DNA of 64,000 nt from Streptomyces sp. NL15-2K (GTDB lineage Bacteria > Actinomycetota > Actinomycetes > Streptomycetales > Streptomycetaceae). This document shows positions 4,127 through 64,000 of the stretch, one piece after another. A model generated the notes under the pieces. The model was not told where the DNA came from and searched no databases. It saw only the letters and a program-made list of their open reading frames with translations. Position numbers and translations under genes: made by a program. Location of the stretch: contig NZ_CP130630.1 in the NCBI RefSeq assembly GCF_030551255.1, positions 11,159,001 to 11,223,000 of the forward strand, read 5' to 3'. Numbering within the stretch: position 1 is the first letter of the stretch; each line of letters begins with the position of its first letter.

Positions 4127-4284
4127 GGGCACGCTCCTTGTGGGTGCGACGTTGTACCGATGAGTGCCGCCGATCCTGCCACAGCGGTTCGGGACGGCGG
4201 TCCGCCCAGTGGCCTGGGGCGACGTCCGCCGTAGGATGCGGGAGACAGGTGCGGCAGCGGCTTGATCGGGAGCAGTAGACCATC

Positions 4285-5998: not shown

Positions 5999-6028
5999 GG
6001 GGACCCCCTGCGTGTGAAAGAGCATCTG

Positions 6029-6152: not shown

Positions 6153-6176
6153 TCGCTTCGTGGGACACTGGTCCGC

Positions 6177-6875: not shown

Positions 6876-6879
6876 GGGC

Positions 6880-6903
6880 GACGTACTTCGCGGGGAGTAC
6901 GTC
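6880..6903. promoter_or_regulatory. Perfect inverted repeat upstream of the two-component operon
   Basis: Arms GACGTACT and AGTACGTC with an 8-bp spacer, about 50 bp before the histidine kinase. The spacing between arms suits a dimeric NarL-type response regulator, which would mean autoregulation. It directly follows the TetR stop codon, so a termination role cannot be excluded, although no T-run follows. Confidence 0.5.
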
Positions 6904-6959
6904 TGATCACCGCGCTCGGCTGACGCCGCCGGGGGCCGTCGGCGTCTAGCGTGGCTGAC

Positions 6960-8866: not shown

Positions 8867-9111
8867 GCCGTCCGCCGGAAACGGATCAGGACGCTGACCA
8901 CCCGGGCGAAGAAGAGGACGGGGGCGAGGACGAGACCCGTGCGGAGCAGCACCACCGCCAGGGTGTCCGGCAATTCGAAGAGCAGCGCCGGACCGGCGAC
9001 CGCCCCGAACACGACCGCCGCCGCGAACAGCGCACTGCACAGCGCGTATCCGATCTCCACGGTGATCGCGTCCCGCTCTGCCTGACTGCGCCGTCCCCCG
9101 TAGCCCGTCAT
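8827..9111 (-). CDS. DUF6332 family small membrane protein
   Basis: A 94-residue protein that begins MTGYGGRRSQAERDAITVEI, the conserved opening of a short streptomycete family (DUF6332). Two hydrophobic helices follow (about residues 22-45 and 50-75), then a basic, polar tail. Function is unknown. The coding 3' end runs 40 bp into the convergent response regulator gene. The start is the ATG at 9111, with no clear ribosome site. Confidence 0.8.
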   Translation of the reverse strand: MTGYGGRRSQAERDAITVEIGYALCSALFAAAVVFGAVAGPALLFELPDTLAVVLLRTGLVLAPVLFFARVVSVLIRFRRTAQPSQPGRTSPDS

Positions 9112-9129
9112 CCCGGCAGTCTCACAAAC

Positions 9130-9166
9130 GTGCGCCCGACGGAGCAAGCGGCTCCGCCGGGCGCAC
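9130..9166 (-). terminator. Stem-loop terminator downstream of the MFS efflux gene
   Basis: GTGCGCCCG...CGGGCGCAC enclosing CGGAGC-AAGCG-GCTCCG gives a 15-bp stem with one internal mismatch and a 5-base loop, placed 20 bp after the MFS stop codon. It would end minus-strand transcription before the DUF6332 gene. Confidence 0.7.
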
Positions 9167-9185
9167 CGTGTGGGAGGCGGTCCCC

Positions 9186-49194: not shown

Positions 49195-49236
49195 CTTTGT
49201 CCTCCTAGTAGTGAGGGCGGGCGGGATGGATTCACA

Positions 49237-49264
49237 TCTGACGTCTGACGTCTGACGTCTGATG
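49237..49264 (-). repeat. 7-bp tandem repeat TCTGACG between aldolase and dehydrogenase genes
   Basis: Four units (three TCTGACG, one TCTGATG) fill the spacer just after the aldolase stop. The same words form the palindromic site upstream of the GntR gene at 52355-52379, so this may be a second regulator-binding site. Confidence 0.75.
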
Positions 49265-50116
49265 TCATAGGTTCGTGCTCAGGCGGTCGATGACGGTCAG
49301 AGCAGCGGCGGTGACCGCTTCGCGGGCGGCAGACCAGAGCCCGACGACGTCGGAGCCGGGCAGCGCGTCCGGAAGGTGGTCGCGGACGGCCTCCAGGTAG
49401 GCCCGCCGCAGCTCCGCGTTGACGTTGACCTTGGCGACCCCGCGGGCGAGGGCCCCGCGCAGTTGCTCGGTGGGGAGTCCGCTCGCGCCGTGCAGGACCA
49501 GGGGCACCGGCACGGCCGCGTGGATCGCGGCGAGACGGTCCAGGTCCAGCCGTACCGGTTCCCTGGTGAAGCCGTGCACATTGCCCACCGCGACGGCCAG
49601 GGCGTCCACGCCCGTCTCGGCGACGAACTCGGCCGCCTGCCGCGCGTCGGTCATGGCCGTGGCCGATGCCACCGCGTCGGTGGAGACGTCCTCGTCGCCC
49701 GCGAGGGCGCCCAACTCGGCCTCGACCCAGGCGCCGTGGTCACGTGCCCGCCGTACGGCCTGACTGGTCAGCGCGATGTTCTCGGCGAACGGCAGATGCG
49801 AGCCGTCGATCATCACCGACGTGTAGCCGGCCTCCAGACAGACGGTGATCTCGTCGAGATCCCGGCTGTGGTCCAGGTGCACCCCCAGCCGTGCCGTCGA
49901 GCGGTCGGCCGCGTCCAGCGCCAGCCGCATCAACGCCTGCTGTCCGGCGTAACGGAACGGCCCGGCGCCCGCCTGGATCAGTACAGGGCGTCCCGCGATC
50001 TCGGCTGCCGCCGTGATGGCCTGCACCGTCTCCAGGTTGTACGCGACGAACCCGGGCAGCGCCTGCCCGGTGGCGGCCGCCGCCTTCAGCGCGTCGGTTC
50101 CGTGTAGCAGCATCAT
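49265..50116 (-). CDS. Class II fructose-bisphosphate-aldolase-family aldolase
   Basis: A 283-residue zinc aldolase of the GatY/KbaY group. GFVAYNLETVQAITAAAEIAGRPVLIQ, VHLDHSRDLDEI (zinc His and catalytic Asp), SVMIDGSHLPFAENI, VEAELGALAG, VAVGNVHGF (zinc His) and LVLHGASGLP (zinc His) are all intact. In this operon it should split the phosphorylated keto acid made by the DUF1537 kinase. Some characterised pathways use an OtnC-type (AraD) aldolase or PdxA instead. ATG 50116 follows AGGAG and overlaps the kinase stop by four bases. Confidence 0.93.
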   Translation of the reverse strand: MMLLHGTDALKAAAATGQALPGFVAYNLETVQAITAAAEIAGRPVLIQAGAGPFRYAGQQALMRLALDAADRSTARLGVHLDHSRDLDEITVCLEAGYTSVMIDGSHLPFAENIALTSQAVRRARDHGAWVEAELGALAGDEDVSTDAVASATAMTDARQAAEFVAETGVDALAVAVGNVHGFTREPVRLDLDRLAAIHAAVPVPLVLHGASGLPTEQLRGALARGVAKVNVNAELRRAYLEAVRDHLPDALPGSDVVGLWSAAREAVTAAALTVIDRLSTNL

Positions 50117-51552
50117 GCGCTCCTGAGCAGGTCGAGGGCGTCGGCGAGGGCCTCGTCGCCGCCGACGTTCCCGGCGAAGACGATGTACGGGATGCCGGCG
50201 GCGGGGCCGTCGACGGGCTGCCACAGCGAGACGATGCCGGGCAGCAGGGTGCCGCGCGCCCAGGCGCGGCGGATCTCCAGACCGTGGGTGGCGGTGTCGC
50301 TGGAGGTGATGCCGCCCTTGGCGATCACGAACGCGGGCCTGCGCGCCGCGTTGACCAGCCGGACCGCTTCCACCAGCGTCGCCGAGACCCGGCGCGAGAT
50401 GGCCAGGCTCTCTTCGGCGTCGGCGCCCGTGACCAGGGCCCGCGAGGTACGGATCACGGCGTCCGAGGACTCCAGCGCGGTGGCCGCCCGGGCCGCCACC
50501 TCGGCGACATGCGGCTCCCGCCGCTCGTCATCGAGGAGGAGCGCCACGTCCAGTTCGAACTCGGCGATTCCGCCGCGCTCCCTCAGCCGCTCCAACTGCC
50601 GTGTGGTCAGGGAGACATGGGAGCCGATCGCGATCAACCCGTGCGGGGCGTCCCCGCGCAGCGGCCGCAATTCCCCGGCGGTGAGCGGCGGCCGCCCGGC
50701 CTGTCCGGCACGGGCCCGTACGAACGACGGGCCGACCCGGTACAGGAGCCGGACGCCTCCCCCCTCGGCCTCGGCCACGGCGAGCGCCAGCACCCGCAGA
50801 TCGTCGTCGCAGACCGCGTCGACCACCGCGGTGCGGCCGTCGCGGAGGCCGGACAGCAGCTCCGCGACCCGGGCCGGGCCGCCCACGCGCAGATCGTCGA
50901 GGGTGATCCGCAGTACGTCGGCGGCGGCGACGCGCCCGCCCGTCTTCTCCTCGACCCACTCGGGCAGTGCGGAGCTGCGGTAGCCGAACGTCGCGTCGCG
51001 GGCGAACTCGCTCTCGCCGACCGGCAGCAGCCCGCCGTCCGGCGTACGCATCCAGTGGTACGAGTCGACGGTGATCCGTCCCGCCTCGATGTACGCGGGG
51101 ACCAGCACCACCCCGTCCGGCGCGTCGGCTCCTACGGCGGCGAGCTCCTGGGCGAGGACGTCGGTCTCCAGCGGGAAGTGGCCGCGCAGCGTCGAGTCGC
51201 CGCGACTGGCCAGCACATAGCCGGTGCCCTCGGCGGCGGAGGCTTCGTGCAGCGCCCGCACCACCTCGCGGTTGCGGGCCGCAGCGTCCTCGGGGGACAG
51301 GCTGCGGGTGTTGGTGAGCACGAAGAAGGCGGCGCTGTCCTGGCGCAGTGCCCAGCGCAGGTCGTCGACGGTCCAGGAGGTGAGGACCGGAACATCGGCG
51401 ACGGTCTGGGTGCCGGTCGGATCGTCGTCGAGGACGACCAGACGCGGTCCGCCGGCGATGCGGGCGGCCACTTCGGCGGCGGGCACCTCACGGACGGGCG
51501 GCAGTCCGTCGAGCGCGGTGCGCCCGGTCCGGGCAGGGAGGGACACAGACAT
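50113..51552 (-). CDS. Four-carbon acid sugar kinase (DUF1537, OtnK/DtnK type)
   Basis: A 479-residue kinase. The N-terminal substrate domain has LVVLDDDPTGTQTVADVPVLTSW (the DDxTG motif) and VLTNTRSLSPEDAAARNREVVRAL. The C-terminal nucleotide domain has VIAKGGITSSDTATHGLEIRRAW and IPYIVFAGNVGGDEALADAL. Known members phosphorylate 3-oxo-tetronates or tetronates at O4. Translationally coupled to the aldolase, and 67 bp after the regulator gene. Substrate stereochemistry cannot be read. Confidence 0.94.
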   Translation of the reverse strand: MSVSLPARTGRTALDGLPPVREVPAAEVAARIAGGPRLVVLDDDPTGTQTVADVPVLTSWTVDDLRWALRQDSAAFFVLTNTRSLSPEDAAARNREVVRALHEASAAEGTGYVLASRGDSTLRGHFPLETDVLAQELAAVGADAPDGVVLVPAYIEAGRITVDSYHWMRTPDGGLLPVGESEFARDATFGYRSSALPEWVEEKTGGRVAAADVLRITLDDLRVGGPARVAELLSGLRDGRTAVVDAVCDDDLRVLALAVAEAEGGGVRLLYRVGPSFVRARAGQAGRPPLTAGELRPLRGDAPHGLIAIGSHVSLTTRQLERLRERGGIAEFELDVALLLDDERREPHVAEVAARAATALESSDAVIRTSRALVTGADAEESLAISRRVSATLVEAVRLVNAARRPAFVIAKGGITSSDTATHGLEIRRAWARGTLLPGIVSLWQPVDGPAAGIPYIVFAGNVGGDEALADALDLLRSA

Positions 51553-51619
51553 GGCGGATTCCTGAGAGGAGAGAGAGGAACAGGTCGGCGGTTCGTGCCG
51601 GGGGCGGAGAGGTGCGCGC

Positions 51620-52318
51620 TCAGTCGAGGTCGCGCTTGATGACGTGCGTCCGCAGGTCGTCGGCCGTCTGGTTCATATGGGCGTTCATCGTCGTGCGGGC
51701 CGCATCCGGGCTGCCCGACTCCAGGGCGGCGAGCACCTGCTCGTGGTGGGCGATGGCGTTGGTACGGATCTCCGGCACCGCGGACGTCTGCCGGCGGCCC
51801 TCGACGAGCAGCGCGCCGAAGGGCTCGAAGAGCAGCGGAACGAAGAGGTTGCCGGCGGCGCGCATGACGGTGTCGTGGAAGTCGATGTCGGCCTGGACGA
51901 ACAGCTCGGTGTCCGCGGCCTCGGCGGCCTCCCGCATGGTGGCGAGGTGCCGTCGCAGCTCTTCGAGGTGCGACGCGTCGCGCCGGGAGGCGGCCAGCTC
52001 GCAGGCACCGTTCTCGATCAGCCGCCGGGCCTCGATCAGCTGCTCGGACAGCGCCCCGCTCGCGGTACGCGAGGCGGCCCTGACCACCGCGTCCAGTGCT
52101 GTCCAGCGGTCGGGCGGATTGACGTAGGTGCCTCGGCCACGCACCACACGGACGACGTTCTGCGCGCGGAGCTGCTTGATGGCCTCCCGCACGGTCAGCC
52201 GGCTGACACCGCCCTGCTCGGACAACTCGCCCTCGGGCGGGAGGGCGGAGTCGGGCGGGTACGCGCCGTCGATGATCGCGGTGAGCAGTTGCTCGGCGAG
52301 GTCGTCCGGGAGTGACAT
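51620..52318 (-). CDS. GntR family regulator (FadR/FCD subfamily)
   Basis: A 232-residue repressor. The winged HTH is LPPEGELSEQGGVSRLTVREAIKQLRAQNVVRVVRGRGTYVNPP, followed by an all-helical FCD domain with metal-type residues (ADIDFHDTVMRAAGN, NAIAHHEQVLAAL, MNAHMNQT). ATG 52318 lies after AGGG with normal spacing. It is the first gene of the sugar-acid operon. A 25-bp inverted repeat upstream is the likely operator, and the ligand is probably a pathway acid. Confidence 0.94.
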   Translation of the reverse strand: MSLPDDLAEQLLTAIIDGAYPPDSALPPEGELSEQGGVSRLTVREAIKQLRAQNVVRVVRGRGTYVNPPDRWTALDAVVRAASRTASGALSEQLIEARRLIENGACELAASRRDASHLEELRRHLATMREAAEAADTELFVQADIDFHDTVMRAAGNLFVPLLFEPFGALLVEGRRQTSAVPEIRTNAIAHHEQVLAALESGSPDAARTTMNAHMNQTADDLRTHVIKRDLD

Positions 52319-52354
52319 CGCAAATCCCTGAGGTTCGGGGGAGGGGTCTCCGGC

Positions 52355-52379
52355 ACATCTGACGTCAGACATCAGATGT
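52355..52379. promoter_or_regulatory. GntR operator-like inverted repeat
   Basis: Arms ACATCTGA and TCAGATGT around nine bases, with an inner palindrome TCTGACGTCAGA (52358-52369). It lies 37 bp before the GntR start and shares the TCTGACG word with the repeat at 49237-49264. Confidence 0.65.
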
Positions 52380-52430
52380 CTATGTGGCGGAAACAATGAC
52401 AGCGAGTGAGGGGCGCGTCAATACCCCGCG

Positions 52431-52466
52431 AAGGACACGCACAAGGACACGTACAAGGAAACGCAT
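52431..52466. repeat. 12-bp tandem repeat, three copies
   Basis: AAGGACACGCAC, AAGGACACGTAC and AAGGAAACGCAT in a row, in the short space beyond the fructosamine-kinase-family stop and upstream of the GntR promoter. No function is apparent. Confidence 0.8.
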
Positions 52467-52489
52467 CGGGCCGCGCTCGCGCCGTGCGG

Positions 52490-53350
52490 TCAGGAAAACG
52501 CTCGGACGACCGCGCGGATCCGCATCACGTGGTCGCCCACCGCGCCGAAGTGCGCGACCACGCTGAGGAGTTCACGCAGATTCAGCAGGGGCATGCGTTC
52601 CCGCCAGCCGTCGGCGAGTGGCGAGATCTCCTGGTAGGCGTCGAAGAAGCAGTCCGGAGGCGGGTCGGTGCAGAACAGCATGCTGAGTTCGGATTCCGCC
52701 CACATCCAGCATGCCGCCGGGTCGATGAACGCGGGTTCGCCCTCGGAGTCCGCGACGACGTTGCCGCGCCACAGATCGCCGTGGTTCAGCACGCTCGGAG
52801 CGTCCGGCACCAACAGGTGAAGGCGGTCACAGATGCGCTCCAGTCCGGCTAGGTCGGCTGCCTCCAAAGTGCGCCGGACCTTGGGTTCACGGACGTAGCG
52901 GAGGATTCGGCGCTCGGCGAAGAACGCGTGGCCGCTGTCGGTCCACGCGTTCTCCTGGGGGAGGAGGCCGAGCCATCCGTCGGTGTGCCAGCCGAACCGG
53001 TCTCCCCGCACCGTGTGCAGCCGTGCCACGGCCCGGCCGGCCGCCTCCCAGAAGCCGTCGGTGTCGGGACGGGCTTCCAGCGATTCCATGAGGAGGTGAC
53101 GGGAACTCACCTCCCATACCCGGGGCGTTCGGAGCTTCCCCAGGTCACGGAGGACACGCAGGCCCTCCGCTTCGAGCGAGTAGAGGTCGGCCGGCACTCG
53201 GGCGGAGCCCTTGAGGACGCGTCTGGTGCCGTCGGTGAGGGTCAGCCGCCAGACGTCGTTGACCGCTCCTCCGGAGAGCGGCTCCGCCTCGGCCACATCC
53301 GCGATGACGGCGCTGGGCAGGCTCTTCCATGCCGGATCGCGGTCGTTCAT
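52490..53350 (-). CDS. Fructosamine-kinase-family phosphotransferase
   Basis: A 286-residue APH-fold kinase. The catalytic loop is LNHGDLWRGNVVAD and the metal motif AFIDPAACWMWAESEL. The segment SPLADGWRERMPLLNLRELL with LSVVAHFG is characteristic of the fructosamine-3-kinase family, which repairs or uses glycated amines. The N-lobe shows LSGGAVNDVWRLTL and RVLKGS (Lys). It lies 69 bp after the acyl-CoA dehydrogenase on the same strand. Whether it belongs to that pathway is unclear. Confidence 0.85.
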   Translation of the reverse strand: MNDRDPAWKSLPSAVIADVAEAEPLSGGAVNDVWRLTLTDGTRRVLKGSARVPADLYSLEAEGLRVLRDLGKLRTPRVWEVSSRHLLMESLEARPDTDGFWEAAGRAVARLHTVRGDRFGWHTDGWLGLLPQENAWTDSGHAFFAERRILRYVREPKVRRTLEAADLAGLERICDRLHLLVPDAPSVLNHGDLWRGNVVADSEGEPAFIDPAACWMWAESELSMLFCTDPPPDCFFDAYQEISPLADGWRERMPLLNLRELLSVVAHFGAVGDHVMRIRAVVRAFS

Positions 53351-53419
53351 GCCGCCTCGCCCTCCGAGAGCAGTTCCGACAATGCCTCCCCCAAGGGAGG
53401 CCGTGCAGGAGCGATGCTG

Positions 53420-54640
53420 TCACGAGCCGGCGGCGGCCTCCGGGCGGGGCTGCCGGTATGGCTTCACCGCGCGGCGCGCGATGGCGAACCGGTGTGTCTC
53501 CGACGGGCCGTCGTAGATCCGGAACGGCCGCACCTCCCGGAGCAGGCGTGCCAGTGGGGCGTCGGCGGCCGAGATGCCGAGCGCTCCACAGATCTGCACC
53601 GCCCGGTCGACCACCCGGTTCACCGCCTCCGCCACGAAGGTCTTGGACACCGAGGTGAGCTGGGAGGCGGCGGCCGAGCCGGTGTCCAACTCCCAGGCGG
53701 TGCGCAGGATCAGGGCGCGGCTCGCCTCGATGTCGATCTCGGAGTCGGCCAGCATCTGCTGCACCATGCCGAGGTCTCCCAGCACGGAGCCGAACGCCGT
53801 CCGGCTGCCCGCCCGATCCAGGGCGACGTCCTGGGCGCGACGGGCGGCTCCCAGCCAGCGCATGCAGTGGGTCATACGGGCGGGGCCCAGCCGGACCTGA
53901 GCGTTCTCGAAGCCGCGGTCGACCGCACCGAGCACCTGCTCCTCGCCGACCACGCACTCCTCGAAGACGATCTCGCTGTGCCCTGCGAAGAGCCCCTCGT
54001 CCAGGGTCTCGATGTCCCGGACGATGCGCATGCCGGGGGTGTCGGCGTCGACCAGGAACATGGTGGCGCCGCCGGGGTCGCCGGGGTTGCCGGAGGTGCG
54101 GGCCATGACGATGGCGAAGGCGGCTCCGTTGGCCCCGCTGATGAACCACTTGCGCCCGTCGATGCGCCACCCGCCGGGGACCCGGGTCGCCGTGGTGCGC
54201 AGGGAGCGGGGATCGGCGCCCGCTCCCGGAGCCGGTTCGGTCATCGCGAAGCAGGACCGGGACTCACCTGCGGCGAGCGGGCGCAGATAGCGCTCGTGCT
54301 GCTCCTCGGTGGCCACCTTCTCCAGTAGATGCATATTGCCCTCGTCCGGGGCCGCGCAGTTCAGCGCCAGCGGGCCCAGCAGTGAGTACCCGGCGGCCTC
54401 GAACACCACCGCCTGTCCGCGCAGGTCGAGCCCGTGCCCGCCCCACCGCGTCGGCACGTGCGGCGCGAAAACACCTGCCTCGCGGGCACCTTTCTGCAGA
54501 GTTTCGCGCAGGGGCTCCGGCGCGTCGTGCACGGACCCGCCGCACTCGCGCTCGGCCGGGATCACCACGTCGCGTACGAACTCCGCGGTGGCCGCGGCGA
54601 GTCGGGCGACAGGCGGATCGACATCGAACTGGATGGGCAC
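53420..54640 (-). CDS. Acyl-CoA dehydrogenase (catalytic Glu present)
   Basis: A 406-residue FAD enzyme. SCFAMTEPAPGAGADPRSLRTTATR, GWRIDGRKWFISGAN and the C-terminal RLLREVRPFRIYDGPSETHRFAIARR, which holds the base Glu, are intact. The sequence is of the ACAD10/11-like branch, which takes longer or branched acyl-CoAs. It is divergent from the enoyl-CoA hydratase-family gene across a 156-bp promoter containing CTGTACAG (54693-54700). It is probably part of the same catabolic island as the plus-strand genes. Confidence 0.92.
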   Translation of the reverse strand: MPIQFDVDPPVARLAAATAEFVRDVVIPAERECGGSVHDAPEPLRETLQKGAREAGVFAPHVPTRWGGHGLDLRGQAVVFEAAGYSLLGPLALNCAAPDEGNMHLLEKVATEEQHERYLRPLAAGESRSCFAMTEPAPGAGADPRSLRTTATRVPGGWRIDGRKWFISGANGAAFAIVMARTSGNPGDPGGATMFLVDADTPGMRIVRDIETLDEGLFAGHSEIVFEECVVGEEQVLGAVDRGFENAQVRLGPARMTHCMRWLGAARRAQDVALDRAGSRTAFGSVLGDLGMVQQMLADSEIDIEASRALILRTAWELDTGSAAASQLTSVSKTFVAEAVNRVVDRAVQICGALGISAADAPLARLLREVRPFRIYDGPSETHRFAIARRAVKPYRQPRPEAAAGS

Positions 54641-54796
54641 GGTTCCTCCCGCCGAAGGGCTCCGGGCATCGGCGCCCGTCGCGTCCTAGAAACTGTACAG
54701 CGTCTTCAGTATCTTGCTGAGTGGCGCTGGATCTGAGGAGCGCTTGATCCGAGGCGTGCTCGACCGGAGCGGGCCTCGACGACGGAAGAAGACCCC

Positions 54797-55621
54797 ATGA
54801 GCACCGAGCCGGTCCGCGTCGTCCGTCATCCCGACCGAGTCGTAGAACTGAGGCTGGACGACCCCGGAAGGGGCAACGCCCTGGATCTCCCGACGGCCGA
54901 GGCGCTGCGCGACGCGACCGCCGAGGTGGCCGCCGACCCGGGTGGCGCGGTCCTGCTGCGGGCAGCGGGCACGACCTTCTGCGTGGGTGGTGACCTGCGC
55001 GCATTCGCCGGCCGGGGCGAGGAGACGGGCGCCTATGTGCACGCCGTGGCGACCGCGGCGCACACGGCGGTGCGGGCTCTGTACGAGCTGCCCGTACCCG
55101 TGGTCGCGGCCGTGCGCGGCGCCGCCGCGGGCGGCGGGATCGGTCTCGCCCTGGTCGGCGACATCGTCCTGGCCGCACGGTCGGCGCGCTTCCGGCTGGC
55201 GTACACGGCGATGGGACTCACCCCGGACTGCGGGGCCACCTGGCTCCTGCCGCGCCTGGTGGGCCCCCGTCTGGCGGCGGACCTGGTTCTCACCAACCGG
55301 GTCCTGACGGGCGCCGACGCCGAGCGGTTCGGCCTGGTCACGCGTGCCGTCGCGGACGACGAAGTGGACGAGGCCGCCCACCGGACCGCCGCCGAACTGG
55401 CCGGTGGAGCGGGCGAGGCACTGCGCGCCGCGAAACGCCTGCTGCGTGACGGTGCCGAGGGTGGGCTGAGCCGTCACCTCGACGAGGAGGCGCGGCTGAT
55501 CGCCGGCCTGGCGGGGAGCGACGAGGCGCAGGCGCGGATGACCGCGTTCCTGGCCCCGCGGGCTCGTGCACGGGTGGGCAGAAGCCGGTCCGCGCCAAGC
55601 AGTCCGGAAAGTGTTTCTTGA
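54797..55621 (+). CDS. Enoyl-CoA hydratase/isomerase (PaaG-like)
   Basis: A 274-residue crotonase. Oxyanion segments TTFCVGGDLRAF and AVRGAAAGGGIGLALVGDI are present. The active-site stretch MGLTPDCGATWLLPRLVG carries Asp where hydratases carry a second Glu, which is the PaaG/isomerase pattern. It could shift or hydrate a double bond in a cyclic or branched acyl-CoA. ATG 54797 follows GGAAGAAG. It is the first gene of the plus-strand part of the island, with a gap of 91 bp to the next gene. Confidence 0.9.
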   Translation: MSTEPVRVVRHPDRVVELRLDDPGRGNALDLPTAEALRDATAEVAADPGGAVLLRAAGTTFCVGGDLRAFAGRGEETGAYVHAVATAAHTAVRALYELPVPVVAAVRGAAAGGGIGLALVGDIVLAARSARFRLAYTAMGLTPDCGATWLLPRLVGPRLAADLVLTNRVLTGADAERFGLVTRAVADDEVDEAAHRTAAELAGGAGEALRAAKRLLRDGAEGGLSRHLDEEARLIAGLAGSDEAQARMTAFLAPRARARVGRSRSAPSSPESVS

Positions 55622-55712
55622 TTACCTCTTCACTAACACCTCCGCCGGAGCGTAACCTCCGGGCAACACAGAACTGAGGACCGGGCGACAGCACCGGGGA
55701 AATGGTGTGGCG

Positions 55713-56363
55713 ATGCAATCTCCTGCCGTGGGCCGGACGGACGCTCTCGACAAGACCCCCACCGAAGACGAGGCACTCACCGAAGCCGTCGTCGACCTCG
55801 TTCTGCGTGGGATGTGGCGCGGCAGGCCCGAGTCGGACCACCGCCCGCTGGTCGACGCCGGCCTGGCCATGGTGAAGGGCCCGATGGTGCTGCCGACCGA
55901 GCCCGCCAGGGCGGCCGCGTCCCGGATCCTGCGGGTTTCCGCCGGTTCCGCGCAGGAGCAGCGGATCACCGCCGCCTACGAGGCCTTCCTGCCGATCAAC
56001 AGGACGCTGCGCGAAGTGTGCACGGCCTGGCAGTGCCGGCCCGACGGCACGGTCAACGACCACGGCGACAGTGTCTACGACGCCGGGGTGCGCGAGTCGC
56101 TGGAGGACGTGCACGAGGCCATCCAGCCCGTACTGCGCAGGCTGGACGGGCTGCCGTCGGGCAGCGGGCACTATGTCACGGCCCTGGAGGAGGCCCTCGA
56201 CCGCTTCGACGACGGCGCGGTGGAGTGGCTGGCCTCGCCCCTGTGCGACTCGTACCACACCGTGTGGATGCGGCTGCACCAGGAGCTGCTGCTGGTTCTG
56301 GGGATCAGCCGGGCGCAGGACGAGGCGCTCGAAGAGGAACTGGTCACCAGGAGCCGAGGTTGA
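55713..56363 (+). CDS. Uncharacterised small protein coupled to the dikinase-like gene
   Basis: A 216-residue acidic, mostly helical protein with no signal peptide or membrane segment. The first ~80 residues (LTEAVVDLVLRGMWRG, LVDAGLAMVKGPMVLPTEPARAAASRIL) could be a winged-helix-like fold. The rest is helical, with conserved-looking VCTAWQCRPDGTVNDHGD and DSYHTVWMRLHQELLLVLGISR. I do not recognise the family with certainty. Its stop overlaps the TTG start of the pyruvate-phosphate-dikinase homologue, so the two are probably made together. ATG 55713 is chosen (GGGGAA upstream). GTG 55707 is an alternative. Confidence 0.75.
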   Translation: MQSPAVGRTDALDKTPTEDEALTEAVVDLVLRGMWRGRPESDHRPLVDAGLAMVKGPMVLPTEPARAAASRILRVSAGSAQEQRITAAYEAFLPINRTLREVCTAWQCRPDGTVNDHGDSVYDAGVRESLEDVHEAIQPVLRRLDGLPSGSGHYVTALEEALDRFDDGAVEWLASPLCDSYHTVWMRLHQELLLVLGISRAQDEALEEELVTRSRG

Positions 56364-58933
56364 GCGTCACCGACCGCCACTCCGGCACACTCGCACAGAC
56401 GCACACCCCCGGCCACGCCCTGGTGCCCTACGGCCAGGGACGGATCCGAGGGCTGGACGCCGGTGAACTGGGCACGCACGGCATCGCCATGGACCGGCTG
56501 GTGGCCCTCGGGCTCCCAGTGGTGCCCGGACTGACGGTGCCGGCGGGCTCGGCCGCGTCGCTGTGCGAGCCGGGTACCGCCCGCGCCGCCCTGGACCTTG
56601 TGGAGCAACTGTCGGGACGGCGGATCGGCGACCGGAGCAGGCCGCTGCTGCTGCGTCTGTCGGCGAGCGCGTCGACCGAGGTCGCCGGGCTGCCGCCGGA
56701 ACTCGCCTGCATCGGTATCACCCCGGCCGACGCCGATGGCATCCGTGCCGTCATCGGCCGCGACGATGTGCTGTACGAGGTATGGGCGGCCACCGTCCGG
56801 TTGATCGCGGAGTACGCCCTTGACGTGCCCGCACCGGAGCTCGACGACGCATCGCTCGACACCCCTGATCCCAGGGCCCGCGTCGACGCACTGCTCTCGA
56901 CGGTCGCCCGGCATGCCGAGCGGCAGTACCCCGACGACCCGGCCGAGCAGCTCGCGCTGGCCGCTCGGGCGGTGCTGGGGCGGTGGGCCTCACCCCGGGC
57001 CAGGCGATCCCGCAAAGCCCAGCGGCTCCCCGCGGAGCTGGGCATCGCACTCCATGTCCAGGCCGTGCGTATCGGGCCATGGGACCACTCGGGCTTCGGC
57101 ACGGCGGTCAGCCGGCACCCCGACAGCGGCCGCTTCTCGCCGCAGGGCTCCTTTTTCCGGGGCGTACGCCGCAGCGCGCCGTCCCCGCGCACGGGCGAGC
57201 CGCTGGAGAAGCTGGGCGGGAGTTCCGCGTTGCTTGAGCACTCGCTGCTCACCCTCGAACGTCATCTGCACGCCCCGGTCACCGTCGACTTCGAGGTGCG
57301 CGACGGCGAGATCTCGCTGCTGGCCGCCTCGGCGCAGAGCCGCCCGCCGCTCCGTGCGGCGGTGTGCCTCGCTGCGGACCTGGCCGGGGACGGGGCGCTC
57401 GACCGGGAAGAGGCCGTACGGCGGATCAGCCCCGCGCAGGTGCAGGAACTGCTGCACCCCCAGCTCCGCCTGACCGGTGGCGAGCAGCTCCTGGTGAAGG
57501 GACTGCCCGCCTCCCCGGGGGCGGCGACCGGGGCGATCGTCCTGTCGAGCGAACGTGCCCTCGAACTGGCCGCGGACGGCACGCGGGTCGTGCTCGTGGC
57601 CCATGAGACGACTCCGGCCGACGTCCCCGGGATGCTGGCCGCCGTCGCCGTACTCACCGGCAGCGGCGGCATCGCCTCGCACGCCGCCGTGGTGGCGCGC
57701 GGTGCGGGCAAGCCCGCCGTGTGCGGCGCCGAGGGACTGCGCGCCGACCGGGCCGCCGGCACCGTACGGATCGGGGACCGGCTGCTGCGCGAGGGCGATC
57801 CCGTCTCGCTGGACGGCCGTACCGGAGCCGTCTACGCGGGGACGCTGAGCGTCAGCGTCGCCGGACCGCCGCCCGAACTGTCCACCCTGCTGGAGTGGGC
57901 GGACGACATGCGCCGGCTGGGCGTGCGGGCCAACGCCGACACCGCCGCGGAGGTGAGCACCGCCGTCGCCCTGGGCGCGGAGGGGGTGGGGCTGTGCCGT
58001 ACGGAGCACCAGTTCCTCGGCGACCGGCTGCCGCTGATCCGCCGGGTGATCCTGGCCGCCGACGCCGCGGCCCGCGACGAGGCGCTGTCGGCACTGGAAG
58101 AGGCTCAGCACGAGGACTTCAAGGCCCTGCTGACCGCGGTGGGGGACCGGCCGGTGACCGTACGCCTGCTGGACGCCCCGCTGCACGAGTTCCTGCCCGC
58201 CGCCGGAGAGGCCCAGGACGCCGCCGAGGAACAGCGGGCCGCCGCACTGCGGGAGGCCAACCCGATGCTCGGGCTGCGCGGGGTGCGGCTGGCGCTGCTG
58301 CACGAGCGGCTCTACCCAGCACAGGCCGAGGCGCTCTTCACCGCCTGGGCCGATGTCGCCGCCACCGGAGTCCGCCCCCAGCTCGAAGTGATGATCCCGC
58401 TCGTCAGCCTGCCGGAGGAACTGGCCGCCGCGGCCGCGTACGTGCGCGGTGCCGCCGACGCGGTCGCCGCCCGCACCGGCGTGGAGGTCCCGTACCGGCT
58501 CGGCACGATGATCGAGACGCCGCGCGCCGCGCTGCTGGCCGGCGAACTCGCCGAACACGCCGAGTTCTTCTCCTTCGGCACCAACGACCTCACCCAGCTC
58601 ACCTACGGATTCTCCCGGGACGACGTCGAGCGCCAGGTGCTCGCCTCGTACCAGGAGCGCGGGTTCCTGACGGCCAGCCCGTTCGCCCGGCTCGATCCGC
58701 ACGGGGTGGGCGCGCTGATCGCCCTGGCGGTGGAGCGGGCGCGGAGCGTACGCCCCGGCATCAAGCTGGGCGTGTGCGGTGAGCACGGCGGAGACCCGGA
58801 GTCCATCGCCTTCTGCGACGAGCTGGGCCTCGACTACGTCTCCTGCTCCGCGCACCGCGTGCCGGTCGCCCGGATGGCGGCGGCGCACAGTGCCGTGCGG
58901 GAGCGGCACGACGACAGCGGGAGCACACGATGA
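56360..58933 (+). CDS. Pyruvate-phosphate-dikinase homologue with degenerate ATP-grasp domain
   Basis: An 857-residue protein with the PPDK domain order. The phospho-His domain (TGSGGIASHAAVVAR, about residues 430-445) and the PEP/pyruvate barrel (EANPMLGLRGVRL, SFGTNDLTQLTYGFSRDD, CGEHGGDP with the proton-donor Cys) look intact. The N-terminal ATP-grasp half is not. The VRSGA loop with its key Arg reads RLSAS (about residue 95), and the C-terminal metal/ATP strand that normally ends MLQTR reads LLAASAQSR (about 320). TTG 56360 follows AGGAG and overlaps the previous stop. It may use PEP or pyruvate without ATP, or the partner protein may supply a phosphate step. Confidence 0.82.
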   Translation: MSVTDRHSGTLAQTHTPGHALVPYGQGRIRGLDAGELGTHGIAMDRLVALGLPVVPGLTVPAGSAASLCEPGTARAALDLVEQLSGRRIGDRSRPLLLRLSASASTEVAGLPPELACIGITPADADGIRAVIGRDDVLYEVWAATVRLIAEYALDVPAPELDDASLDTPDPRARVDALLSTVARHAERQYPDDPAEQLALAARAVLGRWASPRARRSRKAQRLPAELGIALHVQAVRIGPWDHSGFGTAVSRHPDSGRFSPQGSFFRGVRRSAPSPRTGEPLEKLGGSSALLEHSLLTLERHLHAPVTVDFEVRDGEISLLAASAQSRPPLRAAVCLAADLAGDGALDREEAVRRISPAQVQELLHPQLRLTGGEQLLVKGLPASPGAATGAIVLSSERALELAADGTRVVLVAHETTPADVPGMLAAVAVLTGSGGIASHAAVVARGAGKPAVCGAEGLRADRAAGTVRIGDRLLREGDPVSLDGRTGAVYAGTLSVSVAGPPPELSTLLEWADDMRRLGVRANADTAAEVSTAVALGAEGVGLCRTEHQFLGDRLPLIRRVILAADAAARDEALSALEEAQHEDFKALLTAVGDRPVTVRLLDAPLHEFLPAAGEAQDAAEEQRAAALREANPMLGLRGVRLALLHERLYPAQAEALFTAWADVAATGVRPQLEVMIPLVSLPEELAAAAAYVRGAADAVAARTGVEVPYRLGTMIETPRAALLAGELAEHAEFFSFGTNDLTQLTYGFSRDDVERQVLASYQERGFLTASPFARLDPHGVGALIALAVERARSVRPGIKLGVCGEHGGDPESIAFCDELGLDYVSCSAHRVPVARMAAAHSAVRERHDDSGSTR

Positions 58934-60048
58934 CGACCACCGTGACCGACGGCACGGCCCTGTCCGACGCCGAACTGGACGACCTGCGCGAGACCGTACG
59001 GTCGGTGTGCGCCGACAGCGGCGGCACCGCCGCGGTGCGCCGGCTGGCCGAGGAATCTCCGGGTATCGACGCCAAGTTGTGGGACACCCTGGGCCGGCAG
59101 GTCGGCCTCGCGGCCCTCGGTCTGCCCGAGACGGCCGGAGGCATCGGCGGCCTCGCCGAGATCGCCGCTGTCTGCGAGGAGTTGGGCCGAACGCTGACGC
59201 CGGTGCCGCTGCTGTCCTCCACCGTGCTGGCCGGGCAGGTCCTGGCCGGCTGCGGCACGGCCGACCGGGCCCTGGCGGAGCTGGCCGAGGGCAAGGTGCA
59301 CGCCCTGGCGGTGGCGGCGCCCGACGGGGTGTGGCGGCCGGACGCCGTGCCGGTGGCCGTCACCTGGCGGGGCGGCGTCCCGCTGCTGGACGGCACCGCT
59401 CCCTTCGTACTGGACGGTGCCGACGCCGAACGCCTGGTCGTCGCCGCCATCGGGGCCGACGGCCTGGACCTCTTCCTCGCCGACCCGAACGAGCCCGGGG
59501 TGAGCGTCCGCCGAGTGCCCACCCTGGACCTCAGCCGCGGACAGGCGGTGGTCTCCTTCACCGGCGCCCCTGCCCGGCCCCTGACCGCCGGGGGCGAGGG
59601 CGCGGACATCGTGAGCCGCGCCCTGGACGTGGCACTGGTGGCCCTGGCCGCCGAGCAACTCGGCGGCGCTCAGGCCGCGTTGGACATGACGGTGGCCCAT
59701 GTGCGGGAGCGCACCCAGTTCGGCAGGGCCATCGGCGGCTTCCAGGCGGTCAAGCACACCTGTGCCGACATGCTGCTCCAGGTCGAGGCAGCGCGGTCGG
59801 CGGTGGTGCGCGCCGTCCGGGCGGCCGACTCGCCCGAGTCGCTGGCCGAGGCGGCGGCGGTGGCGCAGGCATGGTGCGGCGAGGCGTTCGTGTTCGTCGC
59901 CGCCGAGTGCGTCCAACTGCACGGCGGCATGGGCTTCACCTGGGAGCACGACGCGCACCTGTACTTCCGGCGCGCCCAGTCCGACGCCGTCCTGCTGGGC
60001 GGCGCCGCGCACCACCGGGAACGGCTGGCCGGACTGCTCGGCTGGTGA
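58930..60048 (+). CDS. Acyl-CoA dehydrogenase family protein, apparently lacking the catalytic Glu
   Basis: A 372-residue ACAD-fold protein. ERTQFGRAIGGFQAVKHTCADML (FAD contact) and CVQLHGGMGFTWEHDAHLYFRRAQSDAVLLGG are clear, but the final YxGxxE-type base found in the partner dehydrogenase is missing. Such subunits occur as the second half of heteromeric ACADs (for example ChsE1/ChsE2 of steroid side-chain breakdown). It is coupled by ATGA to the dikinase-like gene. One base after its stop codon a MITE-like element is inserted. Confidence 0.88.
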   Translation: MTTTVTDGTALSDAELDDLRETVRSVCADSGGTAAVRRLAEESPGIDAKLWDTLGRQVGLAALGLPETAGGIGGLAEIAAVCEELGRTLTPVPLLSSTVLAGQVLAGCGTADRALAELAEGKVHALAVAAPDGVWRPDAVPVAVTWRGGVPLLDGTAPFVLDGADAERLVVAAIGADGLDLFLADPNEPGVSVRRVPTLDLSRGQAVVSFTGAPARPLTAGGEGADIVSRALDVALVALAAEQLGGAQAALDMTVAHVRERTQFGRAIGGFQAVKHTCADMLLQVEAARSAVVRAVRAADSPESLAEAAAVAQAWCGEAFVFVAAECVQLHGGMGFTWEHDAHLYFRRAQSDAVLLGGAAHHRERLAGLLGW

Positions 60049-60254
60049 CTTAGGGGTCCTTGCACTATGCCCGCCCGGGTCGCGCGGCCTGGCACCGCAC
60101 CTCGCCGCGTTGCCGAAACGCCCACGTGGCTCCTCCCCCACGCTCGAACAGCCTCGCGCGGGGGGACCCCCATCGAGGGCGCTCCGGCGCCTTGCGATGC
60201 ACGGCACCAGACCACGCGACCTGATCGGGCGCTCATAGTGCAAGGACCCCTTAG
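60049..60254. mobile_element. MITE-like non-autonomous element with TSD
   Basis: The 16-bp terminal inverted repeats GGGTCCTTGCACTATG (60054-60069) and CATAGTGCAAGGACCC (60234-60249) bound a 196-bp insert. They are flanked by a perfect 5-bp direct repeat CTTAG (60049-60053, 60250-60254), the expected target duplication. The interior has no real gene. Subterminal similarity extends inwards. It sits between the acyl-CoA dehydrogenase stop and the DUF35 gene and may affect operon read-through. Confidence 0.8.
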
Positions 60255-60307
60255 CCCGCGGGCACAGCACCACCGCACGAGGACCGTGCAGAAAAGGGCA
60301 GGACGGC

Positions 60308-60727
60308 ATGATCACCAGACTCATCGACGAGGACCTGTTCGAGAGCGTGCATCCACCGCGCCTCAACGGCGGGCGCTGCTCCGGGTGCGCCACCGTGGTC
60401 TTTCCCCGGCAGGACTCGTGCCCCAAGTGCTCGGACGGAGCCATGTCCGCCCATGTGCTGCCGGTGAGCGGACGGGTGTGGTCGTGGACGCTGCAGGCGT
60501 TCCCGCCCAAGCCGCCGTACCGGCCGCCGACCGGGGGCTACCAGCCGTACCACGTGGGCTATGTCGACCTCGGTGAGGTGCTGGTCGAGGCACGGCTGGA
60601 GGTTCACCGCACCGAGATACGGATCGGGCTACCGGTCCGGCTGACCACGGTGCCCGCATACCAGGACGAGGACGGAACCGAGGTGCTGACCTTCGCGTTC
60701 TGCCCGGCCCCGGAAGAGGACCGATGA
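60308..60727 (+). CDS. DUF35 (Zn-ribbon/OB-fold) protein
   Basis: A 139-residue acyl-CoA-associated DUF35 protein. The N-terminal helix and rubredoxin-like zinc ribbon GGRCSGCATVVFPRQDSCPKCS are followed by an OB-fold (SGRVWSWTLQAF, YHVGYVDLGEVLVEARL). Such proteins pair with thiolase-like enzymes (for example ChsH2 with the aldolase Ltp2) to channel CoA substrates. It overlaps the thiolase-like gene by ATGA, as expected for an obligate complex. Confidence 0.92.
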   Translation: MITRLIDEDLFESVHPPRLNGGRCSGCATVVFPRQDSCPKCSDGAMSAHVLPVSGRVWSWTLQAFPPKPPYRPPTGGYQPYHVGYVDLGEVLVEARLEVHRTEIRIGLPVRLTTVPAYQDEDGTEVLTFAFCPAPEEDR

Positions 60728-61884
60728 CCAGATCGAGGTCCGACGAGGTCTACGTCGTCGGCTGCGGCATGCATCCCTTCGGCCGCGACGAGACCGTCAC
60801 CGGGATGGACATGGCCGAGCGGGCGGTGCGCGAGGCGCTGGCCGACGCCGGCACGGCATGGGAGGACATCGGGTACGCGGCCGGCGGCTCCGACGTGTCC
60901 GGCAAACCCGACACGCTGGTGGGCCGTCTGGGCCTGACCGGTGTGCCGTTCGTCAACGTGCAGAACGGCTGCGCGACCGGTGCCTCGACGGTGCTCGCGG
61001 TGGCCAACGCGCTGCGCGCCGGCGAGGCCTCGCTCGGGCTGGCTGTGGGCTTCGACAAACACGAGCGGGGCGCCTTCAACGTCTCCGCGGCCCGCTACGG
61101 ACTGCCAGACTGGTACGCCGAGACCGGCATGATGCTCACGACCCAGTTCTTCGCCCTGAAGACCCAGCGGTACCTGTACGACCACGGGATCTCCGAGCGG
61201 GCGCTGGCGAGGGTGGCCGCGCGGGCCTTCCGCAACGGCTCCCAGCACCCCCTGGCATGGCGGCGCAAGGAACTGACGGAGCAGGAGATCCTCGACTCCG
61301 CCGAGGTCAGCCCGCCCCTCACCCAGTACATGTTCTGCTCGCCGGGGCAGGGCGCGGTGGCCCTGGTACTGGCGCTCGGCGACCGTGCCTTCGACCTGTG
61401 CGAGCGGCCGGTCAAACTGGCCTCGCTGGCCTTCCGGACCAGACGGTTCGGGTCGTTCGAGGTGTTCTCGCCCTGGCTGCCGCCGGGGCCGCACCGCAGC
61501 CCGAGCGTCGACGCCGCGGAGGCCGTCTTCCGCACCGCGGGTCTACGGCCCGCGGACGTACAGGTCGCCCAGTTGCAGGACACCGACAGCGGATCGGAAC
61601 TGATCCACCTGGCGGAGACCGGACTGTGCGGCCACGGCGAGCAGGAGGAACTCCTCGCCGGCGGGGACACCGACCCCACGGGCCGGATCCCGGTCAACAC
61701 CGACGGCGGCTGCCTGGCCGGCGGCGAGCCGGTCGGCGCCTCGGGACTGCGCCAGTTCCACGAGGTCGTACGGCAGTTGCAGGGCCGGGCACCGGGAGCG
61801 CAGGTCCCCGGCGCTCCCCGGGTCGGCTTCACCCACGTCTACGGGGCACCCGGGATCAGCGCCTGCTCGGTGCTGACGGTCTGA
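60724..61884 (+). CDS. Thiolase-like protein (partner of DUF35)
   Basis: A 386-residue thiolase-fold enzyme. The nucleophile-type Cys is in VNVQNGCATGAST. The second thiolase motif, normally GHPxGxSG, reads GGCLAGGEPVGASG, with Glu for the His, and the C-terminus has SACSVL. Members with this pattern are non-decarboxylating thiolase-like or retro-aldol enzymes that work with DUF35 proteins in steroid and side-chain degradation. It probably cleaves a beta-hydroxy- or beta-keto-acyl-CoA. Confidence 0.9.
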   Translation: MTRSRSDEVYVVGCGMHPFGRDETVTGMDMAERAVREALADAGTAWEDIGYAAGGSDVSGKPDTLVGRLGLTGVPFVNVQNGCATGASTVLAVANALRAGEASLGLAVGFDKHERGAFNVSAARYGLPDWYAETGMMLTTQFFALKTQRYLYDHGISERALARVAARAFRNGSQHPLAWRRKELTEQEILDSAEVSPPLTQYMFCSPGQGAVALVLALGDRAFDLCERPVKLASLAFRTRRFGSFEVFSPWLPPGPHRSPSVDAAEAVFRTAGLRPADVQVAQLQDTDSGSELIHLAETGLCGHGEQEELLAGGDTDPTGRIPVNTDGGCLAGGEPVGASGLRQFHEVVRQLQGRAPGAQVPGAPRVGFTHVYGAPGISACSVLTV

Positions 61885-61924
61885 CATCGGCGCTGACGGT
61901 CCGAAAGGCGGAGGACACATCATC

Positions 61925-62628
61925 ATGCGACAAGGCGACAGAACCGCACTGGTCACCGGCGGAGCACGCGGAATCGGCATGGAGATATGCCGACAGCTCG
62001 CGGACCGGGGGCTGCGGGTCCTGGTCGGGGCGCGAAGAGGGAGGCGGCCGAGGAGGCCTGCCGCGCCATCGGTCCGGCGGCGCTGCCGCTGGCCCTGGAC
62101 GTGACCTCCGCGAAAAGCGTCACCGACGCGGTCCGGGAGGCCGGGAAGCTGACCGGCGGGATCGACGTCCTGGTGAACAACGCGGGAGTGTCCCTGGACG
62201 GCGAGCTACGGCCCCCGTACCTCGACGAGGAGCTCCTGCGCACGACCCTGGACACGAACTTCACGGGCGCCTGGCGCATGGCGCAAGCGGTCGTGCCGGG
62301 CATGGTGGAGGCCGGCTACGGACGGGTCGTCAACGTCACCAGTTCCTACGGCTCGCTCGCGCTGATGGACTCCGGCCGCCACCCGGCCTACCGGATCTCC
62401 AAGACCGCCCTCAACGCCCTGACCCGGATGCTCGCGGCCGAACTGGCGGGCACCGGCGTCCTGGTCAACGCCGCCGACCCGGGCTGGACGCGCAGCGGCA
62501 TGGGCGGCCCGTCCGCGCCGCGCGGTCCGGAAGTCGGCGCGGACACCCCGGTCTGGCTTGCGACCCTGCCCGAGGGCGACGGGACGACGGGCGGGCTGTT
62601 CGCCGAACGCGAGCCCCTGCCCTGGTGA
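61925..62628 (+). pseudogene. SDR family oxidoreductase, frameshifted
   Basis: From ATG 61925 (ribosome site GGAGGA nine bases before) the frame gives MRQGDRTALVTGGARGIGME, the SDR cofactor motif TGGARGIG, but stops at a TGA at 62102 after 59 residues. The rest of the protein (EACRAIGPAALPLALDV, VNNAGVSLDGE, the catalytic triad in NVTSSYGSLALMDSGRHPAYRISK) is in the next frame from about 62035 to 62628. Adding one base after GGGGCGCG restores VLVGARKREAAEEACR without a break. Either a recent one-base deletion or a sequence error. Confidence 0.8.
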
Positions 62629-62634
62629 ACCGCC

Positions 62635-63291
62635 TCAGGCGGACGCGGTGGTCGGCTTCTGCTCGGCGGCGACGATACGCAGCGCCAGCGACCTGACCGC
62701 CTCCTGCACGGACCGGGAGGGCAGCTGGGACAGCGGCCCTCCCTCCGTCCGCAAAGCGGTGACCAGAATGGTCGTACTGATCAGCGTGCGCACCGCGAGC
62801 GCCTGCGCCGCGTGCCGTGACTTGGCCGCCCGGGGACTGCGCGTGGTGCCCTCCGGCAGGTAGTCGTACGCCCGCTGGATGTGCCGCTGCTCGAACTCGT
62901 CCCGCAACACCTTGATGTTGCCGTTGGCCGAGGCGATCTGCACCTGGTACAGCCGGGCCTCCTCCGGGTTCCGCTCCACCCAGTCCCACACCGCGTCGAT
63001 GACCCGCAGCAGACCCTCCGCACTCCCCGGTTCGGTCTCCGGCCGGGCCGCCTCCACCACCGCGTTCAGCTGGTCGAAGACCCGCCGCATGGCGAGTTCG
63101 AGCAGCTCCTCCTTGCCGTCGAAGTGGTAGTAGACGGCCGTGGGCACGACCTGGGCCTCGTCCGCGATGTCCTGGATGCTGGTCTCCGCGAATCCGTTGC
63201 GGCCGAACACCCGTACGGCGGCGGTGATGATGTGCTGCCGCCGCGAGGGCCGGTGGGCGGGCTGCTTGCCGTTCTGCGTGGTGGCCATCAT
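62635..63291 (-). CDS. TetR/AcrR family transcriptional regulator
   Basis: A 218-residue repressor. The HTH is QHIITAAVRVFGRNGFAETSIQDIADEAQVVPTAVYYHFDGKEELLELA. The C-terminal domain (DQLNAVVEAARPET, RVIDAVWDWVERNPEEARLYQVQIASANGNIKVLRDEFEQRH) belongs to the group associated with lipid and steroid degradation. It is convergent with the SDR and probably controls this island with the second TetR head to head. A pair of ATGs, 63291 and 63288, is available. Confidence 0.92.
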   Translation of the reverse strand: MMATTQNGKQPAHRPSRRQHIITAAVRVFGRNGFAETSIQDIADEAQVVPTAVYYHFDGKEELLELAMRRVFDQLNAVVEAARPETEPGSAEGLLRVIDAVWDWVERNPEEARLYQVQIASANGNIKVLRDEFEQRHIQRAYDYLPEGTTRSPRAAKSRHAAQALAVRTLISTTILVTALRTEGGPLSQLPSRSVQEAVRSLALRIVAAEQKPTTASA

Positions 63292-63431
63292 GCTCCCTGG
63301 CGGCTGCCGTGACCCCGCGTCTGCGGGCCCTGTCCACTGCCCATGCTATCCAGTAACTCCGCCGGGCCGATGACATAACTCCTGCTACGTATGTGCAGTC
63401 GGAGGACGAAGACCCCGGCATACTTGACACC

Positions 63432-64000
63432 ATGACGACATCCGGAGCTCGCGCCGCCCACCGTCCTTCGCGCAAGCAGTGGGTGATCGAAGCGGCCACG
63501 GAACTGTTCGCCACCCAGTCGCCGGACGAGGTCACGGTGGCCGACATCGCCGCTCGTGCGGAGATGACCTCGGCAGCGGTGTACTACCACTTCTCCTCCA
63601 AGGACAAGGTCCTGGTGGAAGGGATGCGGGTGTTCGCCACCGCGCTGCGCGAACAGCTGCACGCGCTCACGCAGGCCCACGCGCCCGGCACGCCCGTCGG
63701 ACCGGCCGTCACCGCGCTGGTGGCCTGGCTGGGCGAACACCGGTCCGCCGCCACCGTGTTCTTCACGTCCTCGGCCGGCATGAGCCAGGAGGCGGAGGCG
63801 CTGCGCCACGAGAGCCGGACGCAGTTGCTGGAGGAACTGGTCCGGCTGACCCGCAAGGCCCGTGAGTCGACCTCCGACGCGGAGGCGGCGGTCGTCGCCC
63901 TGGGCCTGCTGTCGCTGCTGGAGACCGCGGCGATCTCGCAGGTCCGCGGGGACGACGTCTACCGCTCGCTCGGACACCGCTCCTTCGTCCGCGAGGTCGG
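63432..64000 (+). CDS. TetR/AcrR family transcriptional regulator, 3' end missing
   Basis: The first 189 residues are in the window. The HTH is QWVIEAATELFATQSPDEVTVADIAARAEMTSAAVYYHFSSKDKVLVEGM. The ligand domain runs to the right edge (VVALGLLSLLETAAISQVRGDDVYRSL). No Shine-Dalgarno sequence is present. CATACT ends seven bases before the ATG, as in leaderless genes. It is divergent from the other TetR gene across about 140 bp, which carries two copies of TAACTCC 22 bp apart. Confidence 0.9.
   Translation, partial: MTTSGARAAHRPSRKQWVIEAATELFATQSPDEVTVADIAARAEMTSAAVYYHFSSKDKVLVEGMRVFATALREQLHALTQAHAPGTPVGPAVTALVAWLGEHRSAATVFFTSSAGMSQEAEALRHESRTQLLEELVRLTRKARESTSDAEAAVVALGLLSLLETAAISQVRGDDVYRSLGHRSFVREV

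Follow-up and report, generated by a model that had tools for sequence, protein, structure and literature searches.

A 64,000-nucleotide stretch of Streptomyces sp. NL15-2K (contig NZ_CP130630.1, positions 11,159,001 to 11,223,000; hereafter the window) carries on its forward strand a small gene directly followed by the gene of a large protein related to pyruvate phosphate dikinase (PPDK), here called the donor as a putative donor of phosphohistidine phosphate. The small gene (55713-56363, ATG start) encodes 216 residues. The donor gene (56360-58933) encodes 855-857 residues, depending on whether translation starts at TTG 56360 or at GTG 56366; its stop lies at 58933. An earlier reading of the sequence (the original prediction) fits the GTG start and the 855-residue version, from which donor residues are counted here. 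The database protein P0121 is identical to the donor and has 857 residues, which places the start at TTG 56360 with a 4-nucleotide overlap with the stop of the small gene. Three domains could be assigned. The N-terminal half (residues 22-370, 56429-57475) keeps the ATP-grasp fold in the structure model, its catalytic residues are gone, and PPDK_N (PF01326) gave no Pfam match in the donor at E ≤ 1. It is followed by the swivel, or PEP-utilizers mobile, domain (residues 375-495, 57488-57850) with the catalytic His439 at 57680-57682, and by the phosphoenolpyruvate (PEP)/pyruvate barrel (residues 505-850, 57878-58915), in which every catalytic residue tested is kept. Pfam recognized PEP-utilizers (2.4e-19) and PEP-utilizers_C (6.2e-72). 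Both the similarity to PPDK, which spans the full length, and the fold are PPDK-like, and the barrel plus swivel His also match the fold of enzyme I of the PEP-dependent phosphotransferase system (PTS). All NCBIfam scores fell under their curated cut-offs: 699.8 bits for TIGR01828 (pyruvate phosphate dikinase, cut-off 843.45), 189.5 bits for NF004531 (PRK05878, presumably modelled on proteins of the Rv1127c kind, cut-off 456) and 120.6 bits for TIGR01417 (PTS_I_fam, cut-off 341.7).

We compared the donor with the two canonical PPDKs of the same genome (L034, L035), which carry the full residue set, using residue numbers and roles that we take to be those of C. symbiosum PPDK. K22, R92, E279, D321, E323, Q335 and R337 are replaced in the donor by H, S, R, T, D, A and S, respectively; all seven ATP-grasp residues tested thus differ, the change of E323 to Asp being a mild one. 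The original prediction had described the loss of the Arg loop and of the Gln/Arg of the metal strand, which is borne out, and the loss is wider than that. It had also described the His domain and the barrel as catalytically complete, and H455, R561, R617, E745, N768 and C831 are indeed all present. The same pattern was found in 119 relatives (120 listed of the 294 found, minus the hybrid P0226): R92 and Q335 are kept in none of them, K22 is His in 116 (the other three have gaps), and every one of the 119 has both Arg residues of the PEP site along with the swivel His. The next-closest relatives are Streptomyces-named proteins with 98% identity in the N-terminal half. The 17 window-type rows sampled group in a single clade (support 100/100) in a 43-row tree of the N-terminal half plus swivel, the region that all types share. 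Functional decay of the donor was rejected, because the changes are common to the 119 relatives and the degenerate half is conserved and confidently folded in the model. On these sequence grounds the donor is very probably charged by PEP and independent of ATP. L033 (C1, around 1274650-1277330) is another PPDK-like locus of this genome whose N-terminal part and remainder lie in different, overlapping frames, possibly through a broken gene or a sequencing error. At L035, an 867-codon protein and the PPDK with the full residue set are direct neighbours (3553-6156 and 6517-9210); the former has PPDK_N and a C-terminal swivel with no match to the PEP barrel, a layout like that of RPH or PEP synthase.

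The small partner gave no match in Pfam (E ≤ 1) or NCBIfam (E ≤ 0.01). Its structure model (mean predicted local distance difference test score, pLDDT, of 93.4) consists of a winged-helix-like N-terminal part and a helical bundle. Across 63 family members S180, H182, W185 and H189 are invariant, and N115 and H117 occur in 62. The family was matched in 14 of 101 Streptomyces genomes; at three of these loci (L006-L008) a window-type donor adjoins the small gene, and at six (L009-L012, L014, L015) the neighbour is a PPDK-like protein of about 31-33% identity. No small gene was found beside a canonical-type PPDK at any of 19 control loci (16 with 1.5-kb flanks only, and one, L033, frame-broken). 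Several other settings of the small family were observed. Sinosporangium album (L157:4252-6447) has an acyl-AMP ligase and the small domain in one fused chain, and in Gordonia (L161) the same two occur as adjacent genes. At L032:4446-8174, near a small-family gene (L019/L032), one natural fusion protein joins PPDK_N and a swivel to an AMP-binding domain that resembles fatty acyl-AMP ligases. The small homologue of L026 adjoins a SpoIIE/GAF/PAS protein and a DUF4135/LANC-like lanthipeptide synthetase (Pfam) with no dikinase nearby, and L029 matches this layout by gene lengths, again with no dikinase nearby. In Acidimicrobiia and related metagenome-assembled genomes (MAGs), the small gene stands near the centre of the locus, within all or part of a conserved housekeeping row with no donor nearby (L139, L143, L145, L148, L150-L152, L156, L158, L162, L172, L173); the row comprises PNPase, DapB, an SURF1-like protein, the small gene, DapA, RNase J and FtsK, labelled from one Pfam example each.

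The five neighbours of 31-33% identity that were scanned (494-601 residues) contain PPDK_N and a swivel and no PEP domain. They resemble VadK, and such VadK-type proteins, which keep the ATP residues and have no PEP domain, are the mirror image of the window type. Exceptions are D321, which is Tyr in L023-L025, L027 and L213, and E279, which is Asp in L213 and His in L211. As the small family also accompanies these enzymes, one partner appears to serve both ATP-charged and PEP-charged donors. In a Mycobacterium MAG (L155/L205), a VadK-type protein scoring 786.7 bits against NF004531 is followed directly by a small-family member. The NF004531 cut-off is unspecific, since the canonical-type L214 passes it (501 bits) and 4 of 14 control genomes exceed it; the VadK and canonical classes are therefore defined by PEP domain and residue table, and each label needs two changes on the tree because the VadK-type L196 groups with L214. 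VadK itself (Rv1127c of M. tuberculosis) is reported to be a kinase of PPDK descent, phosphorylating its own His422 with ATP and Mg; co-expression of its operonic neighbour Rv1126c improved its solubility, and a 2 M NaCl wash separated the two (PMC13400623). The main-text passages of that report that name Rv1126c assign it no function. Rv1126c is not named among the 120 matches listed of 3473 to a mycobacterial small-family query, and we infer its membership in the family by analogy with the gene arrangement of L155. Some mycobacteria are described as having a full-length PPDK that lacks critical kinase motifs (PMC13400623), which may correspond to the window type.

The genome contains eight swivel-domain places, one of them just beyond the end of the window. 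It belongs to a 578-residue protein, the candidate acceptor (window-equivalent 70657-72390, L193:9657-11390), about 12 kb downstream of the donor, which has both swivel and substrate-binding regions. The swivel domain PF00391 is its only Pfam match, with no ATP-grasp. Its alignments to RedH (2.4e-43, residues 68-569) and RPH (5fbs; 4.5e-25, residues 268-568) cover the acceptor-binding and swivel regions of both. Judged through these profiles rather than by an alignment to HpeH, the protein would be built like HpeH of the phenol dikinases.

To follow the three genes together, we surveyed 394 genomes of the actinomycete class, counting donors at ≥ 850 bits (next score 713) and acceptors at ≥ 350 bits (next score 143); two donor and three acceptor candidates were scored per genome, so copies can be missed. 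Of these genomes, 83 contain the small family, 14 a window-type donor and 18 an acceptor. The acceptor was found in 13 of the 14 donor genomes, and all donor genomes as well as all 18 acceptor genomes contain a small gene, which adjoins the donor in 13 of 14. The distribution tests gave P values of 1.6e-19 and 1.4e-13 with phylogeny ignored, and these overstate independence because the genomes that have a donor or an acceptor, 19 in all, come from six families. Donor and acceptor lie within 20 kb of each other in 10 of 13 genomes. Five donor genomes (G350, G271, G366, G251, G162) have at least three acceptors, with one window-type donor found in each among the two candidates scored. The co-occurrence that the original prediction had proposed to survey is thus present, and the small protein and the donor likely constitute one functional unit.

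Altogether, we propose, at a probability of roughly one half, that the donor is the PEP-charged part of a small-molecule kinase that has three components and is laid out like the PTS, in which the HpeH-like protein serves as acceptor. PEP would bind the C-terminal barrel, His439 would take the phosphate and pyruvate would leave, as the intact residues suggest. The former ATP-grasp half would act as a scaffold and perhaps as a docking site. The phosphate would then pass to the swivel His of the 578-residue protein, either directly or via the invariant histidines of the small partner. If donor and acceptor cooperate, a His-to-His step is implied because each has its own swivel His, and the small protein, in which His182, His189 and His117 are conserved, is the obvious intermediary, although it could be an adaptor only. 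From its domain make-up, the 578-residue protein would bind and phosphorylate a small molecule handled by the catabolic cluster. HpeHI and CreHI suggest by analogy that this substrate could be a phenol or a different compound with a hydroxyl, which the Rieske enzymes would perhaps oxidize afterwards. One general donor with its partner would serve one or several substrate-specific acceptors, and the whole would be a three-component analogue, driven by PEP, of the phenol dikinases that run on ATP. The original prediction had suggested a PEP-dependent phosphotransferase onto another acceptor, and on sequence grounds the absent ATP site and intact PEP site agree with this part of it. The intermediate of a CoA pathway that it offered as receiver found no support; the 578-residue protein, which lies beyond the window and so out of view of the original prediction, is the more natural receiver, with about an even chance of being the actual one. 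It is tempting to speculate further that a PEP-dependent phosphorelay exists outside the known PTS, running from PEP via His439, a His of the small carrier and the swivel His of the acceptor to catabolic substrates, with a carrier family that also serves VadK-type donors, an exchangeable donor half, and VadK of the tubercle bacillus as the ATP-fed form of the same machine; in this full extent the idea is tentative and rather doubtful.

Next to the pair, an acyl-CoA dehydrogenase gene (58930-60048, forward) overlaps the donor stop by 4 nucleotides; at loci of Streptomyces, Lentzea and Frankia its family is kept as a neighbour of the donor. On the same strand follow a ChsH2-like OB-fold/zinc-ribbon protein (60308-60727) and a thiolase-fold lipid-transfer-type protein (60724-61884), both conserved neighbours, and upstream lies a crotonase-family protein (54797-55621, forward), conserved in Streptomyces and Lentzea. 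A second acyl-CoA dehydrogenase (53420-54640, reverse strand) is a divergent conserved neighbour. The Streptomyces and Lentzea clusters retain the two acyl-CoA dehydrogenases, the crotonase, the OB-fold protein, the thiolase-fold protein and often a short-chain dehydrogenase/reductase (SDR). Further downstream the genome has 2-oxoacid dehydrogenase-type E1/E2 genes, two Rieske oxygenases, an SDR-like gene and the acceptor, followed by a 2Fe-2S ferredoxin, an alcohol dehydrogenase and an ATP-binding cassette (ABC) transporter with its binding protein; G285 (L204) has the same gene order, judged by length and first residues. The acceptor loci scanned for Rieske proteins were that of the own genome and the neighbours at L182, L200, L201 and L198. 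Rieske oxygenases are close to three G350 acceptors, the one at L182 near the donor and those at L200 and L201. The original prediction had read the acyl-CoA setting as support for a specialized role. At L177 and L182 no acyl-CoA-type family from the window's neighbourhood is seen again near the donor, which leaves donor, small protein and acceptor as the more constant setting. No RNA family reached its gathering score in 52000-64000. A separate cluster on the reverse strand (46757-52396) encodes a GntP permease, a 3-hydroxyisobutyrate dehydrogenase-like protein, a class II aldolase, a SBD_N/NBD_C kinase and a GntR regulator, and resembles a four-carbon sugar-acid pathway.

Several observations weigh against the three-component kinase. 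Five of the 18 acceptor genomes (family f13) have no window-type donor; in the one looked at closely (G112) the small gene stands beside a VadK-type donor (L196) with the acceptors elsewhere on the chromosome, and none of the three neighbours tested beside its acceptor in L198 gave a Rieske match. The swivel of the acceptor could also be charged by another protein, and the acceptor motif reads G-A or G-S where HpeH has GG. Donor and acceptor are on different contigs in 3 of 13 genomes. In G445, a fragmented assembly, a donor was found without an acceptor and without an adjacent small gene, with a small homologue elsewhere in the genome; this is the single case of the kind the original prediction had named as damaging, a donor homologue lacking the small partner. 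Conversely, no donor lies within 1.5 kb in 5 of the 14 Streptomyces small-positive genomes (L013, L016-L019), and 37 of 80 named loci, many from Acidimicrobiia, have the small protein without a donor in the fetched stretch, which implies further roles for the protein or a partner that is not linked to it. The predicted coupling of the pair is supported by its adjacency and co-occurrence; found with VadK-type donors and often without any donor nearby, the partner is not specific to the ATP-less form. Finally, VadK is described as a regulator of enzymes and not as a metabolite kinase (PMC13400623).

A somewhat unlikely alternative is regulatory phosphotransfer, in which the PEP-charged donor, with the small protein as adaptor, would modify or bind enzymes of the adjoining catabolic pathway according to the PEP/pyruvate ratio, much as is proposed for VadK, ATP and the methylcitrate enzymes. 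The partner family is shared with VadK-type donors, and VadK autophosphorylates on its His and pulls down PrpC and PrpD (PMC13400623). These targets rest on pull-downs and predicted complexes (PMC13400623), however, and regulation leaves unexplained why the acceptor tracks the donor in 13 of 14 genomes and why acceptors have multiplied. It is less probable still, and clearly unlikely, that the donor is itself a small-molecule kinase, whose dead ATP-grasp half binds a metabolite such as a hydroxylated acyl-CoA for phosphorylation by His439, with the small protein shaping the site and the 578-residue protein acting as a separate pathway enzyme. The conserved, confidently folded half and the acyl-CoA enzymes of the operon are consistent with this, as is the report that B. 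subtilis Enzyme I alone can phosphorylate rifampicin in vitro (PMC13099321). In VadK-type systems, however, this partner accompanies an ATP-grasp that is intact, which shows that it does not depend on a remodelled pocket, and the acyl-CoA-type neighbours are missing at L177 and L182. A role of the small protein as MarR-like transcription factor, with the pair reading the PEP state as a signalling unit, seems very unlikely to us. Its winged-helix-like part, seen in the secondary structure of the model, and the MarR-type or transcriptional regulator labels that several sources give to its relatives would fit, but the net charges (medians over the 63 sequences of -1 for the N-terminal part and -8 for the remaining core) are not what a typical DNA-binding protein would show, its joining with an acyl-AMP ligase in L157 weakens the idea further, and VadK is reported not to control its pathway at the level of transcription (PMC13400623). 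An ordinary PPDK using ATP through unusual residues, as full-length similarity and fold might suggest, deserves hardly any weight given the seven altered residues and the two PPDKs with a full residue set in the same genome.

Returning to the three-component kinase, the combination of a donor, a small helper and a separate substrate-binding protein suggests an unrecognized route for phosphorylating compounds that are being broken down. If true, PEP could take the place of ATP in catabolic small-molecule phosphorylation, with a donor and a small partner feeding acceptors that can be exchanged. The idea would also assign a definite function to the small family that accompanies VadK-type proteins and has had no explanation, with a hint as to where VadK-type phosphate goes, and a set of 'pyruvate, phosphate dikinase' genes in Streptomyces, Frankia and relatives would probably be misnamed. 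Within a limited literature search, we found no paper on a PEP-driven version of the small-molecule dikinases.

Among known systems, VadK/Rv1126c is alike in that a PPDK-derived swivel-His protein is encoded beside a small protein (PMC13400623); VadK has the ATP-grasp and no PEP barrel, whereas in the window donor the reverse holds. HpeHI, CreHI and PpsAB share a separate acceptor subunit with substrate-binding and swivel domains, encoded in catabolic clusters, and the HpeI donor is described as an ATP-grasp subunit without a swivel (PMC12167813, PMC9618137). In contrast, the donor described here would be charged by PEP on its own swivel His, an extra small partner is present, and the co-occurring protein combines a dead ATP-grasp with a PEP barrel where HpeHI and PpsAB have a working ATP-grasp subunit. 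The downstream acceptor aligns with the C-terminal acceptor-binding and swivel regions of RPH and of the RedH/PigC ligases; RPH includes an ATP-grasp within its one chain (PMC12167813), whereas the acceptor has none. Canonical pyruvate phosphate dikinase shares the three-domain layout and the PEP-site residues with the donor, which differs in its lost ATP site, its small partner and a score below the TIGR01828 cut-off. PTS enzyme I likewise combines a swivel His with a PEP barrel, and in both cases one PEP-charged protein could feed several substrate-specific acceptors. The donor is, however, of PPDK ancestry, and it carries a dead ATP-grasp half where enzyme I has its HPr-binding helical part.

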